43,943 nucleotides of DNA, from assembly GCA_013202295.1 (NCBI GenBank), contig JABMRT010000076.1, positions 1 to 43,943 of the forward strand, given 5' to 3'. Positions 6,013 through 32,935 of the stretch are shown one piece after another. This stretch comes from Candidatus Zhuqueibacterota bacterium. Its GTDB lineage: Bacteria > Zhuqueibacterota > QNDG01 > JABMRT01. The notes below the pieces were generated by a model that was not told the DNA's origin, did not search any database, and saw only the letters and a list, made by a program, of their open reading frames with translations. The stretch's first letter is position 1, and each line of letters opens with the position of its first letter. The translations under genes were made by a program, and so were the position numbers.

Positions 6013-7008
6013 TTATCGGTCAAATAAGATTTTAATTTCCTTGACTTCTTCCACCAATTGTGGCGGCAAATGCAATGGTTTTGTCGCCATTCTTTTATGG
6101 AGGATATCCGCATAAACGCGCTCGATCTGCTCCGCTGTCTTTCCTATCGCCTCAGCCACATTCGCAGCAGGTATGTTGTGATTTTTCCCATATAGGCACA
6201 GATCAAATTGATCGTAGGGCACGGAAAAATAAAACTCCTCCTGACTCTGGTCCATGGAATAGGTATCGGTTGTAGGCAGCCTCTGTTGGATCTCCTTCGG
6301 AATGTTTAAATAAGTAGCCAGTTCATACACCTGCGTTTTATAGAGATGTGCGATTGGCTTCACATCTGCAGCACCGTCGCCGATTTTCACAAAGAATCCT
6401 TGATCATACTCCTGGCGATTGGGCGTGCCGGTCACTGCATAATTCAGCCGGTCTGCATGATAGTATTCCAGCATCTTGCGGATGCGCTGTTTGAAATTGG
6501 TGGCTGCTACAATTTGAGAATAGGCAGACGGGGTCAGACGCGCCTTGGTTTCTTTGCCATCAGGCGATTGAACCACAACAGAAAAGATGCGATATTCATC
6601 TGATTGCATCAGATTGGGTAAAACGATTTTACTCGAATAGTCTGAATCGTATTCCGGGATGATTGACCGGATTGCCTCGTCCCGGTGCTGGTAACACCCG
6701 ACCGCTTCAAGCATGGGTGTGATGTCTTCCTCAAGGGCTTCAATACAGAGATGATCCGCAATAAGTCGGCTTAATCGCAGAGTGTCAGGAGAGGAGTCTT
6801 TTTCAGGCAAGAGCAGTCCGAACACCCGTTCTTTTCCCAAGGCCTTGACACACAGCGCACCCACGACGCTGCTGTCGATACCTCCGGATAATGCCACAAC
6901 CACGCCTCGTTTTTTAAATTGTTTTAAAACCGAATCACAAAGAAAGTCTGTTATTTTTTTAGTCTCTTTGATACAGTCTATTTTTAACACATCAGAATGA
7001 AATGGCAT
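6013..7008 (-). CDS. NAD synthetase family enzyme (ammonia-type), in an amidation operon
   Basis: 331 residues. The PP-loop SGGIDSS (41-47) binds ATP, and TGTPNRQE..GFFVKIGDGAADVKPI (193-219) corresponds to the NadE signature. Housekeeping NadE has GTDHAAE-like sequence at the first part and a GQTDE-like one later, which here reads TTDTYSMDQSQEEFY. There is no nitrilase domain, so it would use free ammonia. It is the last gene of the minus-strand set, 14 bp after the AMP ligase. It could be the cell's NAD synthetase or a specialised paralogue that makes an amide in the adjacent pathway. The altered motif and location favour the latter weakly. Confidence 0.75.
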   Translation of the reverse strand: MPFHSDVLKIDCIKETKKITDFLCDSVLKQFKKRGVVVALSGGIDSSVVGALCVKALGKERVFGLLLPEKDSSPDTLRLSRLIADHLCIEALEEDITPMLEAVGCYQHRDEAIRSIIPEYDSDYSSKIVLPNLMQSDEYRIFSVVVQSPDGKETKARLTPSAYSQIVAATNFKQRIRKMLEYYHADRLNYAVTGTPNRQEYDQGFFVKIGDGAADVKPIAHLYKTQVYELATYLNIPKEIQQRLPTTDTYSMDQSQEEFYFSVPYDQFDLCLYGKNHNIPAANVAEAIGKTAEQIERVYADILHKRMATKPLHLPPQLVEEVKEIKILFDR

Positions 7009-7022
7009 GGCAAGATCCTTTT

Positions 7023-8555
7023 CTAAGGATTTTTTAATTTCTCTTTTAAAATTTTGCCTGAATCATTTTTAGGCAAGTCATCCAATAGGACGATAGTTTT
7101 TGGCTGCATATAAGAAGGCAATTTCTTTTTTAGATATTTTTTATAATCCTCTTCAGTGAAAGTAGCATTCTTACGGGGCACTATAAATGCTTTTATTGCT
7201 TCTCCCACAATATCATCCGGAATGCCAATGACAGCGGTTTCATGAACCTGATTCATCTCCAGAATACACTCCTCAATTTCCTTTGCACTGACACGTTCTC
7301 CTGCAACCTTTATAATATCTTTTTTCCGGCCGACTACATAAAGAAATCCTTCTTCATCCGTTTTCCCCAGATCTCCGGTAAAATAACATCCATTTTTTAA
7401 AACCTTGTCTGTTTCTACTGGATCATTCCAATAGCCCGCCATTATATTGGATCCTCGCGCAACGATTTCACCAATTTCTTCAGGACCGGCTTTTTCTCCT
7501 CGTTCATTTGCAACAAATAAATCCACATTGGGAATCGCCTTCCCGATGGATCCCCATTTTTTATGAAGCATTTCAGGATCAAGGTATGAAAGTCTTGCCG
7601 AAGCTTCTGTCGCACCATACATCACAACCAATTTGGCAGGAGAAAGGACTTTATCCACTTCCTTTTGAACCGAAACGGCCATTGATCCTCCTGCCTGTGT
7701 GATATACCGAAGATGATTAAACTGATATTCCCTTATGGTTGTTTTATTCAGCAGAATTATAAAAGTGGATGGCACTCCCGCAAATCCAGTTGCTTGTGTG
7801 TTTTTCAAAGTATCCAGTACAACTTGAGGATATGCAAATCGATTTTCAATGACTACCGAACCACCGGTATAAAAATGAGTATTTAACAGGGATTTACCAT
7901 AGATATAATAAAAAGGCAATACAACCATGATTCGATCTTTTGAGGTTAATTTTAGATAGTCCACAATAGAACGCGTATTTGATAATATATTCAAATGCGT
8001 TAGTGTCACACCTTTTGGTTTTCCGGTGCTACCAGAAGTATAGACAATTGAAGCCACATCCATATCGATAGATCGAACATTTGGATGAGAATGATTTCCA
8101 TTCCTATAGATATCTTTTAAACAGATGGAATGACAATGCCCGATTTCTTGATACTCTGACAAATCTTCCTGATTGATGATACACAAGTTTAAATGGGGAG
8201 ATTGACTCAATGCCGGAAGTAGTATTTTGGAAAATCTTTGATTGGAGATAATCCCCTTTGCCCCGGAATCATTGATATAATAGATCAACTTTTCCTTATT
8301 AGATGCTGTATTTAAAGCAACTGTAATGGCCCCGGCTTTCAGGATTGCATAATAGCCTATCACATAATCAAATGAATTTTCATACAACAGTGCGACTCGA
8401 TCTCCTCTTTTAATTCCGCCTTCAATTAAAGTATTGCAAACCTTGTTCGAAAGAGAATCGATTTCTCGGTATGTCATCCATTTTTCATCATTGTAAACAG
8501 CTTTGGAATCAGGATACTTCTGAGCAGACATCTCTAATATCTGATTGACCTGCAT
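7023..8555 (-). CDS. AMP-forming acyl-CoA/acyl-ACP ligase
   Basis: 510 residues, the normal size of the ANL superfamily. Motifs in order: YTSGSTGKPKGV (172-183, ATP-binding A3), YGATEAS (A5), FTGDLG (A7), VGRKKDIIKVAGERVS (hinge, A8) and the catalytic lysine near the end in DSGKILK (Lys501). It adenylates a carboxylic acid and passes the acyl group to a thiol. With an acyl carrier protein encoded two genes upstream, that carrier is the likely acceptor. GGGAGA precedes the ATG. Similar ligases occur with AsnB-like amidotransferases in exopolysaccharide and exosortase-linked loci. The substrate cannot be read from the sequence. Confidence 0.88.
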   Translation of the reverse strand: MQVNQILEMSAQKYPDSKAVYNDEKWMTYREIDSLSNKVCNTLIEGGIKRGDRVALLYENSFDYVIGYYAILKAGAITVALNTASNKEKLIYYINDSGAKGIISNQRFSKILLPALSQSPHLNLCIINQEDLSEYQEIGHCHSICLKDIYRNGNHSHPNVRSIDMDVASIVYTSGSTGKPKGVTLTHLNILSNTRSIVDYLKLTSKDRIMVVLPFYYIYGKSLLNTHFYTGGSVVIENRFAYPQVVLDTLKNTQATGFAGVPSTFIILLNKTTIREYQFNHLRYITQAGGSMAVSVQKEVDKVLSPAKLVVMYGATEASARLSYLDPEMLHKKWGSIGKAIPNVDLFVANERGEKAGPEEIGEIVARGSNIMAGYWNDPVETDKVLKNGCYFTGDLGKTDEEGFLYVVGRKKDIIKVAGERVSAKEIEECILEMNQVHETAVIGIPDDIVGEAIKAFIVPRKNATFTEEDYKKYLKKKLPSYMQPKTIVLLDDLPKNDSGKILKEKLKNP

Positions 8556-8620
8556 TTCACTATCTCCCGATTTGATGATTGCTTTTATCCATTTTGTATT
8601 GAATCAAAACAAGCATTGTA

Positions 8621-10603
8621 TCATTTACTTCGAACCCTTTGATCCACAATGACATCGGGTTCCATGTCCGCGCATATGAGACCGTCCGTATTTTCAACGA
8701 ACTGACGATGAAGCAATTGAGAAGATAAAATGCCAACCAGAGCCATGTTGTCGATCTCGGTGGGACGATCCGTCTTCTCCAGTTTCGCAATCAGCTTCGC
8801 AACCTTTCCGGGATCGAACAAACTTGCCTTTTTCAATGTGCTTTCTGATAACATGTCTTTGACATAGCCTGATGACTTTTCATGCAGCAGACTCTGTTTG
8901 ACCGGTGCGCGGTACGGATGTTTCTCGCGATGGACGATGTCTCCCGGCAGCTCATTCTCGTATGTCTTCCGCAGAATATATTTTTCGGTGAGTCCACGTA
9001 TTTTCCATTTCGGCGGTACTTTGCCCATGAATTCCAGGATACGATGATCGAGAAATGGAAGTCTGATTTCGAGGGAGTGGGCCATGGCCACCCGGTCTCC
9101 CTGCTGGGCAAGAAGGTAGTTGCTCATAAAAAGTTTCATTTCGAGATACTGCGCTTTGGACAATCCATTCCACTTCTCATAATCGGCTGGAAGCGATTCC
9201 CGCAGCAGAACTGTTCCATCGTACCGGCCGATGGTGTGTTTCAGATCGTCCGAAAAGAACGTCTTGATTTTCTCTGCATTATTCCATCGAATCCGATGAG
9301 AATAGAACGGATCGTTTGTATCCTCCAGGCCCTGAGCGAAAAAGGATTGCATCATGAGCCTCTGTCTCGGATCGTTGAAAATGTACGGATAGAGCCTGCT
9401 GATTAAAAGAGGCCGCATTTGAGAATTCGGCTGTCTGGCCCAGAATCTTCGGACCTTTGCTTCCCGGAAAATATTGTACCCCCCGAAGACCTCATCCGCA
9501 CCCTCGCCTGTGAGCACGACTTTTAATCCTACTTTATTCACTTTTTCTGAAAGAAGATAGAGGGGTACGGGAGCGGTGCGAAGAAGAGGTTTTTCGCAAT
9601 GGAGAATAACACCGGGTAAAGCTTCTGCGATTTTTGCGTTCGATGTAATGACTTCATGATGATGTACATTTAAAAAGGCGACCATCTTCTTTTGATATTC
9701 GCCCTCATCATACTCCGGCTCATCGAATCGAATCCCGAATGTCTGCACATTCGGATTAAAATGTTTTTTCACCAACATAGTCACGATAGATGAATCCAGC
9801 CCGCCGCTCAAATAGGTGCCGACCGGCACATCCGACCTGAGCCGCAGCCGGATCGAATCATACAGCAATTCCTCGATTTCCCTGCTGATATTTTTAGCCG
9901 GCCAGTTTATCAGCTTCGACTCGGGATAAAAAGGAATTTCCCAGTATTTTCGCTCGATGACCTTTCCATCGGCAGCAGTCAGACAATGACCAGGTGGAAG
10001 TTCGCGGATGTCTTTAAATGCGGTAGATCCGTCCAGCGTGGTCCAAAATGTAAAAATCTGCTCCAACGCAATTGGATCAATCTCTCGCTTGACCTGATCG
10101 CACATTAAAATGGCCTTGATCTCAGATCCGAAAAGCAACATGCCGTTCAGAATTGTGTAATACAACGGCCGGATTCCAACGCGATCCCTTGCCAGGAACA
10201 GGTTCTGTTTCTTTGTATCCCATATGGCAAAGACAAATTGCCCATTGAGCTCGTTCAGACAATCGGCTCCTTTTTCCTCATAGAGATGGAGAATAACTTC
10301 TGTGTCCGTTTGCGTGTAAAATCGATGTCCCCGCTTTTTCAGATCCACTCTGAGTTCGGGATAATTAAAGACCTCTCCGTTGTAAACAATCCACAGGGTT
10401 TGATCCTCATTATGAATGGGCTGTGTGCCCGAGCTCAAATCGATGATGCTCAGCCGGTCATTGACCAGTCCAACCCGGTCATCAAGATAGATGCCCTTTT
10501 CATCCGGCCCGCGATGATGCAGCGCATTCATCATACGCTTCAGCAATGTCAGGGAAATAGACTGGGAGGATTGAAAATTAAAAATGCCTGCAATACCGCA
10601 CAT
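8621..10603 (-). CDS. Glutamine-hydrolysing asparagine synthase family amidotransferase
   Basis: 660 residues. The invariant N-terminal MCGIAG gives Cys2 of the class II glutaminase, followed by HHRGPDEKG (29-37), YNGEVFN (74-80) and a synthetase domain with PP-loop SGGLDSS (266-272) and LTGEGADEVFGGY. Cys2 fixes the start, although no clear Shine-Dalgarno is visible; five bases separate it from the upstream acyl carrier protein stop, so translation may be coupled. Glutamine-derived ammonia is channelled to an adenylated carboxylate. It could make asparagine, but its position between an acyl carrier and an acyl ligase suggests amidation of a uronic acid or acyl intermediate, as with exosortase-associated amidotransferases. 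Confidence 0.9.
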   Translation of the reverse strand: MCGIAGIFNFQSSQSISLTLLKRMMNALHHRGPDEKGIYLDDRVGLVNDRLSIIDLSSGTQPIHNEDQTLWIVYNGEVFNYPELRVDLKKRGHRFYTQTDTEVILHLYEEKGADCLNELNGQFVFAIWDTKKQNLFLARDRVGIRPLYYTILNGMLLFGSEIKAILMCDQVKREIDPIALEQIFTFWTTLDGSTAFKDIRELPPGHCLTAADGKVIERKYWEIPFYPESKLINWPAKNISREIEELLYDSIRLRLRSDVPVGTYLSGGLDSSIVTMLVKKHFNPNVQTFGIRFDEPEYDEGEYQKKMVAFLNVHHHEVITSNAKIAEALPGVILHCEKPLLRTAPVPLYLLSEKVNKVGLKVVLTGEGADEVFGGYNIFREAKVRRFWARQPNSQMRPLLISRLYPYIFNDPRQRLMMQSFFAQGLEDTNDPFYSHRIRWNNAEKIKTFFSDDLKHTIGRYDGTVLLRESLPADYEKWNGLSKAQYLEMKLFMSNYLLAQQGDRVAMAHSLEIRLPFLDHRILEFMGKVPPKWKIRGLTEKYILRKTYENELPGDIVHREKHPYRAPVKQSLLHEKSSGYVKDMLSESTLKKASLFDPGKVAKLIAKLEKTDRPTEIDNMALVGILSSQLLHRQFVENTDGLICADMEPDVIVDQRVRSK

Positions 10604-17858: not shown

Positions 17859-18926
17859 TTATTCTTCAGGAATCAACGCTCCTAAAAGTTCTTCTCGCCA
17901 TTCACCGGCATTCCGGTCGTAGATGCCGAACCCAGCACCGAATTCCCAATAAGCCCAGCTGAAATCAAACGACTCTGCAGTACGCGCCACGTGGTCGGTC
18001 CAGAGTACACGGGAGGCCATGTCGGCCTGCTCGTATGCGCCGAACTCACCCATATATACGGGCCGGTTTTCTGCTTCTGCCCAATCTGCGACAGATTCAA
18101 AATCACTTATGACCCGTGCATAATGGCTCTGCAGGTTGCCCCAGGTGGTGCCGAGCCAGTCTCCAGATCCTTCAACCCAACCGGTAGCGCCTTGATGAGT
18201 AAACTGAAACGGATTGTAATAGTGAAACGTGGCGATAAGGTGCTGATCGTTCTCAGGCAGATCGAGTGTGTTCATGGATGAAAAGCTGTTCCAGTTGATG
18301 GGGCCGATAACGACATTGCGTGTTGGATTTGTTTCACGAATCACATCCAATACAGCTTTATATACTTCGTCCCAATTATCGGCATTAAACTGGTCATGCG
18401 GTTCGTTTTTAATCTCAAAGATCACTGAATTCGGATAGTCTTTATATCGATCTGCGATTTGTCTCCAGATTTCCACGAACCACATTTTATTACCAAGTGG
18501 ATCGGCATCCAGCACATCAATATGGTGACAGTTGATAACAGCGTTTAGTTCCGCTCGAATTGCATTTTCAATCACCCAGTCGATACGACTGAAAAATGTT
18601 AGATCTATAGTTGAAGGATATACGGGCAAAGCGTGGTATCCCCAGCTGATGGGAACGCGAAGGGATTGAAATCCGGCCTGTTTAATCAGTGTGAAATATT
18701 CCTCCTGAATGACCATGCCCATGTCTCCTTCATTCTCACCTTCGAGCGCGTTGCCGAAATTGACGCCCCGACCAAGCAAGACATTTTGCTCAAATGCGCC
18801 AATCTCTTCAAAGGGCGGAAGTCCTACCGGGTCTTCTGAAAGGACGTTGGTCTTCTTTTTACACCCTGTTAGGCTCAGCAGGAGAGTAAAAAGTAAAAGT
18901 GTAAAAATTGAGTTTTTCCAGTTCAT
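17859..18926 (-). CDS. GH5 family glycanase lipoprotein
   Basis: 355 residues. Signal peptide with lipobox LTGC (Cys22), so it is membrane anchored. The TIM-barrel cellulase pattern is clear: GRGVNFGNALEG near the start, RVPISW (90-95), then INCHHID, the acid/base Glu175 in FEIKNEPHD, and the nucleophile Glu294 in YMGEFGAYE. Expected to cut beta-1,4-linked glucans, mannans or mixed-linkage glycans. It lies 77 bp behind the SUI1 gene on the same strand but probably has its own promoter. With the SGNH esterase and the GH8 remnant it marks a polysaccharide-use region. Confidence 0.9.
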   Translation of the reverse strand: MNWKNSIFTLLLFTLLLSLTGCKKKTNVLSEDPVGLPPFEEIGAFEQNVLLGRGVNFGNALEGENEGDMGMVIQEEYFTLIKQAGFQSLRVPISWGYHALPVYPSTIDLTFFSRIDWVIENAIRAELNAVINCHHIDVLDADPLGNKMWFVEIWRQIADRYKDYPNSVIFEIKNEPHDQFNADNWDEVYKAVLDVIRETNPTRNVVIGPINWNSFSSMNTLDLPENDQHLIATFHYYNPFQFTHQGATGWVEGSGDWLGTTWGNLQSHYARVISDFESVADWAEAENRPVYMGEFGAYEQADMASRVLWTDHVARTAESFDFSWAYWEFGAGFGIYDRNAGEWREELLGALIPEE

Positions 18927-19003: not shown

Positions 19004-19357
19004 TTAACCGCCTGTTTGTTTGACTTTAATTCCTTTGTTTTCCAGAAAGGATTTGACCTGTTTGATCCGGTCACCTTGAATGAGGATGATGCGGTCCTTA
19101 ATTGAACCACCGGTGCCGCAGGATTGTTTCAATTCCGATGCCAGTTGGCGCAATGCCTCATTGCCCATCTCCAACCCACTGATGGTGGTTACAGTCTTGC
19201 CTTTGCGGCCCTTGATCTCACGACGAATTTTCGCAATCCCGTCCCCTGTCGCTATCTGGTTTGCTTTCTCGCAAATACAATCCAAAACGGGCATAAAACA
19301 GTCCGGGCAGGATTGGTTTGAGCCTGTAGAGTAAACGGAGTGTGAGTTTTGATTGAT
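19004..19357 (-). CDS. SUI1/YciH-type translation initiation factor, predicted AUC start
   Basis: 117 residues if translation begins at ATC 19357; only 96 if it begins at the first ATG (19294). The SUI1 core is clear: GDGIAKIRREIKGRKGK, LASELKQSCGTGGSIKD, ILIQGD, and the C-terminal GIKVKQTGG. The codons before ATG 19294 encode SVYSTGSNQSCPDC, matching the conserved VYSTG start of the family and completing a CPDC..CIC metal-binding pattern. No ATG, GTG, TTG or CTG lies in frame there. AAGGAG sits seven bases before ATC 19357, while ATG 19294 has no ribosome binding site. The protein probably affects start-codon selection on the ribosome. It follows the protease stop by 16 bp. Confidence 0.8.
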   Translation of the reverse strand: MNQNSHSVYSTGSNQSCPDCFMPVLDCICEKANQIATGDGIAKIRREIKGRKGKTVTTISGLEMGNEALRQLASELKQSCGTGGSIKDRIILIQGDRIKQVKSFLENKGIKVKQTGG

Positions 19358-19373
19358 CCTGAGGCTCCTTGAC

Positions 19374-21521
19374 TTACTGAACTAAAATGGCTTTACGGGT
19401 CTGGGCTTCCGATCCGATTTTCGCCTGTATCAGGTACACACCCGAACTGACAGGCGTGCCGCTCGCGTCTTCCGCTTTCCAGATGCTCTGATGAAAACCG
19501 GCTTGCATTTCACCCTTCCAAAGCATTTGAATGTGCCGACCCTTTAAGTCATAGACATCCACTTGAATCGGCGAGGTCTCACGAAGTTGCCAGGAGACAG
19601 TCACCGAACCGTTGAAAGGGTTGGGATAGGCTGGATTCAAATGAAACATGCCGGGTATATTTTTCAAATCAGAATCGGTGTCAGAAGATGTGGCTTCCGT
19701 GACCTCAAGATTGACCGGAATTTTAATTTCGGACTGGCTTGCATCGTTTGAACTGATATAGAGGATTACAGAATAATTGCCAACGTCCAGGCTGTCTGTG
19801 TCAACCGTGATTTCTACGGCTGTGTTCATGCCGGACTCGATTATCCCTCCGCTGTTCTCGAGATTGAGCCAGTCCACAACTCCGTTTTCACCGCCGAATG
19901 AAGTTAAATCCAATCCCGCAGTGATGGTGCCATCCAAATAGGTCAGGGTTTGATCGCCATCCAAAATCAGAATCTCATCGAGAAACACGCCGTTTATCGA
20001 CGAATTGTTCGGTGAGGAATAAGCCAGATCAGAGGCGAATTCGAAACGGATAATCACATTGTCCATTTTAAAATTCGAAAGATCGAAAATTGCCTGTGTC
20101 CATCCGCCCGATGAGCCAGCCCAGCCGGGAACGCCGGGCCCCATGTTCCATCCCTCATTGGCGCCACCGAAGCTCCACAGGCTCTGGCAAGTGTAGGGCG
20201 GTGTGAGTGGGATGAGGGGATTAAAATTGTCGCCCCCATCCACGGAACACCAAACATTGGTGCCATCCCAGCCATCATAAGGTGCGCTTGCCCCGACCGG
20301 AGGCTCAATGGCCCAGGAGATCATGAAGCGAAGCTCCGGATGTGTTGCAGTTGAAAGGTCGATCGGAGGCAGATCCATGACCTGGCGCCAGTAATCGTCA
20401 TATCCCCCGATTTCCGGATCACCGTTCCAGAACGAAAAATCATCCCAGGCCCCGGATGTCTCTGTATGAAAGTTCGGGGGAAGCTGCTCAATATAATCCA
20501 CTGTGGAGTATTCCAGCTTGCCAGATCCATCATTGGTCAGAATCAGATGGGTGGTTTGGCTTTCGCCTTGTTCTACGGTTAGATTGAGTTCGCTGTTCGA
20601 AACCGACAAGGCCGGACCTCCCATGACACTGTCCCACACAAAAGGTATATACTCACCGATTTCGCACTGGCCCCATTTGATTCGAAAATATCCACCCTGC
20701 CCCCAGTTCGCACCCCAGCTGTTCTTGCAGACCCAGCTTTGCTCTGTGTCATCCCAGCCCACAATCAAGATGGCATGGCCGCCTTCATACTCTCCCCAGA
20801 TATGTTCATACACTCCGGATGAATAAAAGAAAAAATCGGCATACACTTCAAAGCTGGCAGTGACCGGGTGCCGGGCCACTGCGTTTTTAATGGTTTCTAC
20901 ATTGGCTTCGTCCAGTGAGACGTATCCCCATCCCGGAATGGTGACGGGTGTGGCCAGCAAGGCCGGGCATTCAGTTTCACAGAAGACGCCATCCCGTGCT
21001 TGATATGGCAGGCAAGCTTCTACTGGAATCCCATCCGTTCGGATATATTCAAGTGCTTCCTCAGACCGGCCACCGCTCGCACAGCTGCCGTTTGTGCATG
21101 AAATCAGAATCTGCTCGGATAGATCGACCTGTTCCTCTGAGTTGTTCAAATGAATCTTCATCCAGGATTCCACTTGGGCCACCGCACCGAACGCCCAGCA
21201 GCTGCCGCAGTCTGCCTGGTCCCTGACAGGCGTGAGCCAGTTGCCGTTGTGATTGCGCCAATCCAGCGCCTCAGGCAGGATGGTCATCTGATCAAGCTCA
21301 ATCAGGGCGACTTTTGCGTGTTCGGGTCGGTCTAGCCGGGCGCCGCACAGTCTGCGTCTCTGCTCTTGAGTTCTCCGCGATACGGAATTCTCGCTGGCGA
21401 TCCACGCTGCGTTCCTCAATTGAATCTCACGTTGGATTTCTTCAAGCGATTGTGTCTTTGCTACATTGGCCGCAATCAGGAGCCCCAAACAAAGCATTAC
21501 TATTGAGCGCAATTTAATCAT
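19374..21521 (-). CDS. Secreted papain-family (C1A) cysteine protease with sorting domain
   Basis: About 715 residues. I prefer ATG 21521 to the TTG at 21527, since GGAAA lies about ten bases upstream of it. Signal peptide (IVMLCLGLLIAANVAKTQ), a short propeptide, then the peptidase: QADCGSCWAF (Gln and catalytic Cys near residue 108), GGHAILIVGW (His) and CKNSWGANWG (Asn). The middle region resembles beta-sandwich modules, followed by a FlgD-like/type IX-style sorting domain (YPNPFNGSVTVSW, VYLIQAKIG). Expected to digest proteins outside the cell. It is followed closely by the SUI1 gene on the same strand, perhaps by read-through rather than function. Confidence 0.9.
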   Translation of the reverse strand: MIKLRSIVMLCLGLLIAANVAKTQSLEEIQREIQLRNAAWIASENSVSRRTQEQRRRLCGARLDRPEHAKVALIELDQMTILPEALDWRNHNGNWLTPVRDQADCGSCWAFGAVAQVESWMKIHLNNSEEQVDLSEQILISCTNGSCASGGRSEEALEYIRTDGIPVEACLPYQARDGVFCETECPALLATPVTIPGWGYVSLDEANVETIKNAVARHPVTASFEVYADFFFYSSGVYEHIWGEYEGGHAILIVGWDDTEQSWVCKNSWGANWGQGGYFRIKWGQCEIGEYIPFVWDSVMGGPALSVSNSELNLTVEQGESQTTHLILTNDGSGKLEYSTVDYIEQLPPNFHTETSGAWDDFSFWNGDPEIGGYDDYWRQVMDLPPIDLSTATHPELRFMISWAIEPPVGASAPYDGWDGTNVWCSVDGGDNFNPLIPLTPPYTCQSLWSFGGANEGWNMGPGVPGWAGSSGGWTQAIFDLSNFKMDNVIIRFEFASDLAYSSPNNSSINGVFLDEILILDGDQTLTYLDGTITAGLDLTSFGGENGVVDWLNLENSGGIIESGMNTAVEITVDTDSLDVGNYSVILYISSNDASQSEIKIPVNLEVTEATSSDTDSDLKNIPGMFHLNPAYPNPFNGSVTVSWQLRETSPIQVDVYDLKGRHIQMLWKGEMQAGFHQSIWKAEDASGTPVSSGVYLIQAKIGSEAQTRKAILVQ

Positions 21522-21667
21522 GTCCAATGAATTTCCAGTTTATTCCTGAAATAGATAGAATTTACACAGATTGAAAATAAGGAGATCAAAGGATTGTGAC
21601 AAGGGAAAAAAATGTGAAAGCATGAGAGGTGTAAAGATCTCTTATCCAACCCTGGAGAAGAGAATTT

Positions 21668-32762: not shown

Positions 32763-32836
32763 GGGCCCATAGCTCAGTTGGTTAGAGCGACGGACTCATA
32801 ATCCGTTGGTCGGAGGTTCGAGTCCTCCTGGGCCCA
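32763..32836 (+). tRNA. tRNA with CAU anticodon, probably tRNA-Ile2
   Basis: 74 nt that fold fully: acceptor GGGCCCA/TGGGCCC, D arm, anticodon stem ACGGA/TCCGT around the loop CTCATAA (anticodon CAT), and T arm GGAGG/CCTCC with TTCGAGT. The discriminator is A, and CCA is not encoded. CAU can mean elongator methionine or the lysidine-modified isoleucine tRNA. The C4-G69 and C5-G68 acceptor pairs resemble Ile2, and the acceptor lacks initiator features. It lies 28 bp after dnaG. Confidence 0.93.
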
Positions 32837-32935
32837 CGTTGTTCTTTATCAAGACATTTTAAGGAGATCTATTTCTTGGGCGGAATCTATCGAGCCACAT
32901 TCGGATTATCCTTTTTTAAATTTAAATTCACATTT

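Follow-up and report, generated by a model that had tools for sequence, protein, structure and literature searches.

A gene of the SUI1/YciH family (here sui1) in contig JABMRT010000076.1 of a Candidatus Zhuqueibacterota bacterium (assembly GCA_013202295.1), whose 43,943 nucleotides form the window of this analysis, is predicted to start at an AUC codon. Its product is a bacterial relative of eIF1, a factor that acts on start sites in eukaryotes. The reading that we favor, with a probability of roughly 0.7, is that sui1 would be translated from this AUC, and that the codon would be a lineage-private, tolerated near-cognate start and no conserved autoregulatory device.

Start region of the SUI1/YciH gene

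The predicted start codon (19355-19357, minus strand) is the first codon before a conserved N-terminus, and a Shine-Dalgarno (SD) motif, AAGGAG (19365-19370, minus strand), stands seven bases upstream of it. The reading frame is closed upstream by an in-frame TAG (19384-19382, minus strand), after which it runs TTC AGT AAG TCA AGG AGC CTC AGG ATC AAT CAA AAC TCA CAC TCC GTT TAC TCT ACA GGC ... TGC CCG GAC TGT TTT ATG. Between the TAG and this first in-frame ATG (19292-19294, minus strand) there is no in-frame ATG, GTG, TTG or CTG, nor does any other frame hold an ATG, GTG or TTG, so that a single missed indel could not rescue the start; a hidden indel masking a canonical start was rejected as an explanation. 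A single substitution at 19355 could restore a canonical start. Predicted mRNA structure at the start was not unusual (z -0.79).

The codons between the AUC and the ATG (19295-19354, minus strand) encode VYST and CPDC, the latter being the first half of a CPxC...CxC pattern, and would be lost from a protein begun at 19294. An alignment with six relatives revealed nine invariant columns in this region (V8, Y9, S10, T11, C17, P18, C20, C27 and C29). SD-like matches are frequent at starts in the source genome, with at least four bases in 626 of 880 open reading frames (ORFs), and matches of at least six bases to AAGGAGGT were found by chance at about 1% (26/2283) of the codons that precede the first canonical start and are not near-cognate. 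A well-spaced SD, a conserved N-terminus and the absence of a canonical start coincide in sui1, and the AUC is probably its true start, judging from these features. The initial annotation had described the same arrangement, with VYSTG and CPDC in frame ahead of the first ATG, none of ATG, GTG, TTG or CTG in that stretch, and AAGGAG seven bases before the ATC at 19357; these observations were confirmed on the minus strand, and the AUC start that it predicted from them is well supported by the SD placement, the conserved in-frame N-terminus, the lack of a rival start and the low error rate reported below.

Read from the ATC, the coding sequence (19004-19357, minus strand) comprises 117 amino acids and a stop codon, and matched two profiles, NF005297 and PF01253. 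The NF005297 match (E 1.5e-39; residues 3-117 on model positions 8-121 of 121) scored 134.6 bits, below the curated equivalog cut-off of 145, and the PF01253 SUI1 domain (residues 42-111; E 6.7e-19) scored 68.6 bits, above the cut-off of 25.5. NF005297 is therefore named as the best-matching subfamily, and the gene is assigned to SUI1/YciH by its domain only. A search for a second SUI1 copy in the same genome found none.

Start codons of homologs and of other genes in the genome

To place the AUC in a wider context, the start before VYST was sought in 61 distinct homologous loci, 44 of them from the phylum. A canonical start was found 1-12 codons before VYST in 60 loci (ATG in 46, GTG in 8 and TTG in 6), and sui1 of the window was the sole exception. 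With such a start at this place in every other readable locus, sui1 matches its homologs in start site and departs from them in the codon alone; in both same-family relatives, the same N-terminus follows an ATG. The share of ATG among the other phylum loci (31/43) was near that predicted for the source genome (725/880). One of the 60 loci (L007; G049:C2 906426-906773) has its natural ATG one frame off, beside an A-run in a five-contig assembly, and is left with just a GTG, placed one codon ahead of VYST; this copy is probably an indel error or a pseudogene.

The initial annotation had proposed aligning related SUI1 genes for conserved AUC, AUU or AUA starts, and none emerged among these readable loci. 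A pattern scan for AUU, AUC and AUA starts of SUI1 genes in 395 genomes, from the phylum of a Desulfobacterales metagenome-assembled genome, returned one match (L094), in which the ATC is out of frame and a GTG, as well as an ATG, is in frame. In two other phyla, broader scans (40 and 334 genomes) returned none and two ATG genes, respectively, with patterns too strict for absence to count.

A blind scan of 960 ORFs, which asked for a strong SD, a near-cognate codon behind it and a run of eight or more codons free of canonical starts, picked up sui1 and three other genes, all on the minus strand. These were a GNAT-like gene (L117; G000:C23 15993-16928) with AAGGAGG and CTG, and 39 codons without a canonical start; a signal-peptide protein (L198; ~6413-7171) with AAGGAG followed by ACG at seven bases or ATC at four, and 44 such codons; and a thioredoxin-like lipoprotein (L211; ~8292-8810) with GGAGG and ATT, for which most readable relatives have ATG at the matching place. 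Near-cognate cases therefore number four, against 174 strong-SD genes in which the loss of a start would be detectable, which suggests that gene callers limited to ATG, GTG and TTG miss true N-termini in this genome. Because such starts are shared by genes with no role in initiation, the AUC of sui1 needs no SUI1-specific reason; on the sequences compared here, it appears private to one lineage or genome and not specific to SUI1.

Further scan hits were left uncounted where a canonical start with an SD lay further downstream or where the stretch was of low complexity. The latter applied to a peptidyl-tRNA hydrolase-like gene (L128, plus strand), in which the VGLGNPG motif is preceded by no ATG, GTG or TTG, only by ATA, ACG and ATT, within a low-complexity AGAAGGAG region. 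In another genome (G007, 366 kb), no convincing near-cognate case was found in 105 genes with an SD of at least five bases, a number too small to call the source genome (G000) unusual.

Alternative explanations

The most serious alternative is that the codon is in truth ATG, differing by one base at 19355, and that the assembly carries a base error or the base of a minor strain. The initial annotation had held that a plain ATG with the same N-terminus in relatives would point to such an error; that conservation was indeed found, but the error rate of the assembly contradicts the conclusion that a base error lies behind it. In-frame stops with coding sequence on both sides were collected from 1.46 Mb of the source genome, and nearly all are followed shortly by a canonical start and look like neighboring genes, leaving at most two possible nonsense interruptions. 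With a scan sensitivity measured at 0.58, the base error rate is about 1e-4, with an upper bound of 3e-4, and the chance that a given start codon is lost to error is 0.0002-0.0007 per gene, a rate that falls short of the near-cognate starts observed as a class: errors would be expected to produce at most 0.13 detectable losses, whereas four were observed, including three that came from the blind search. Because so few nonsense candidates bound the error rate, a base error at the sui1 start is unlikely. Several points nevertheless weigh against the AUC as a genuine, tolerated start. The error test presumes an even spread of errors, and a locally poor stretch could still conceal one, so that a local error at 19355 may be present, the assembly letters being the sole basis; the sampling is a single metagenome-assembled genome, with the genus represented by one sequence; and for some of the other near-cognate starts the identification relies on no more than an SD and a signal peptide. 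The error explanation is kept alive mainly by the rarity of published switches from AUG to near-cognate codons, with one change to AUU in 61,358 reconstructed AUG starts and no AUC reported (PMC5622118), although annotation rarely admits near-cognate starts. Translation from the ATG at 19294 would yield a 96-residue protein that retains the entire SUI1 domain, which falls wholly downstream of that codon; however, this ATG is without an SD, and its use would delete VYST and the CPxC half of CPxC...CxC, invariant in the aligned relatives, and it is the least probable of the alternatives.

Two further explanations accept the AUC and differ in why it is there. SUI1/YciH might, like IF3, reject poor starts, such that high SUI1 levels would repress its own synthesis and the AUC would be retained for this purpose. 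The infC gene of the source genome (L051) itself has an AUU start, and a 2006 paper, to go by its title alone, reportedly gives YciH a possible share in IF3-like fidelity work. However, infC starts with AUU or AUC behind an SD in 27 of the 29 readable genes of the phylum (AUU in 19, AUC in 8), whereas AUU, AUC or AUA was found at none of the 60 other sui1 loci, and similar starts occur in genes of the same genome that have no relation to initiation. Autocontrol was demoted as the main explanation because the AUC is not conserved, and we consider it improbable; self-regulation of sui1 is possible and unsupported. The suggestion in the initial annotation of an independent case of the infC and eIF1 logic is thus not borne out, given the private AUC, the retention of AUU and AUC in infC, and the unrelated genes with near-cognate starts. 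Slightly less probable still is a lineage-wide relaxation of start-codon discrimination, through which AUC, AUU, ACG and CUG starts would have spread and sui1 would have come under joint control by IF3 and itself. In an alignment of IF3s, that of the source genome carries Phe where each of the 28 others from the phylum carries Tyr, and this Phe-bearing IF3 is a possible cause of relaxed discrimination. We take the position, matched by eye, to be that of Tyr75 in Escherichia coli, where the substitution Y75N is said to relax fidelity, a literature search for Y75N having found nothing; the IF3 of Firmicutes reportedly carries Phe at the Tyr75 position.

Proposed initiation and genomic context

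Under the favored reading, a private and tolerated AUC start, the AAGGAG, probably together with 30S subunits finishing the upstream gene 16 bases away, would set fMet-tRNA on the AUC at 19357, and the 117-residue protein would begin with Met instead of Ile. Outside AUG, GUG and UUG, initiation complexes are destabilised by IF3, and this start is therefore expected to be weak and IF3-sensitive, with lower expression as a likely consequence, and the SUI1 factor itself may act as a second discriminator. The codon would have arisen in the lineage from an ATG, GTG or TTG ancestor, as one of several near-cognate starts tolerated behind strong SDs, and a close upstream gene end combined with a strong SD would be an ordinary route for a weak start to work. 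If this is correct, the gene of a SUI1-family factor with an AUC start would make it simple and cheap to test whether the SUI1 proteins of bacteria exert IF3-like start discrimination in vivo.

The upstream gene (19374-21527, minus strand) encodes a papain-family peptidase (PF00112) with a Por secretion tail (PF18962), and its TAA (19376-19374) is separated from the ATC by those 16 bases; the two genes probably share a transcript and may be coupled in translation. Downstream lies a gene for a GH5 cellulase-family lipoprotein (17859-18926, minus strand), without an evident link to translation. The window also holds a tRNA-Met(CAT) (32763-32837, plus strand) whose anticodon stem is without the initiator-type GGG/CCC pairs and which looks like an elongator.

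Comparison with known systems

Like infC, sui1 is an initiation-factor gene with an AUC/AUU-type start behind a strong SD, and both occur in the same genome and phylum; the poor start of infC is kept across the phylum, whereas that of sui1 is limited to one genome. The window protein shares its SUI1 domain and N-terminal VYST with PRK06824-type relatives of YciH (1d1r_A being E. coli YciH), but its N-terminus has the CPxC...CxC of the NF005297 branch, and its start is unlike that of all other readable loci. Noncanonical starts repressed by IF3 are also found outside infC, as in sigR of Streptomyces, which starts at GTC (PMC5472188). Like sigR, sui1 would extend control of a noncanonical start by IF3 beyond infC; the sigR start, however, has been proven experimentally and serves the ratio of sigma to anti-sigma factor, whereas that of sui1 is a prediction from sequence.
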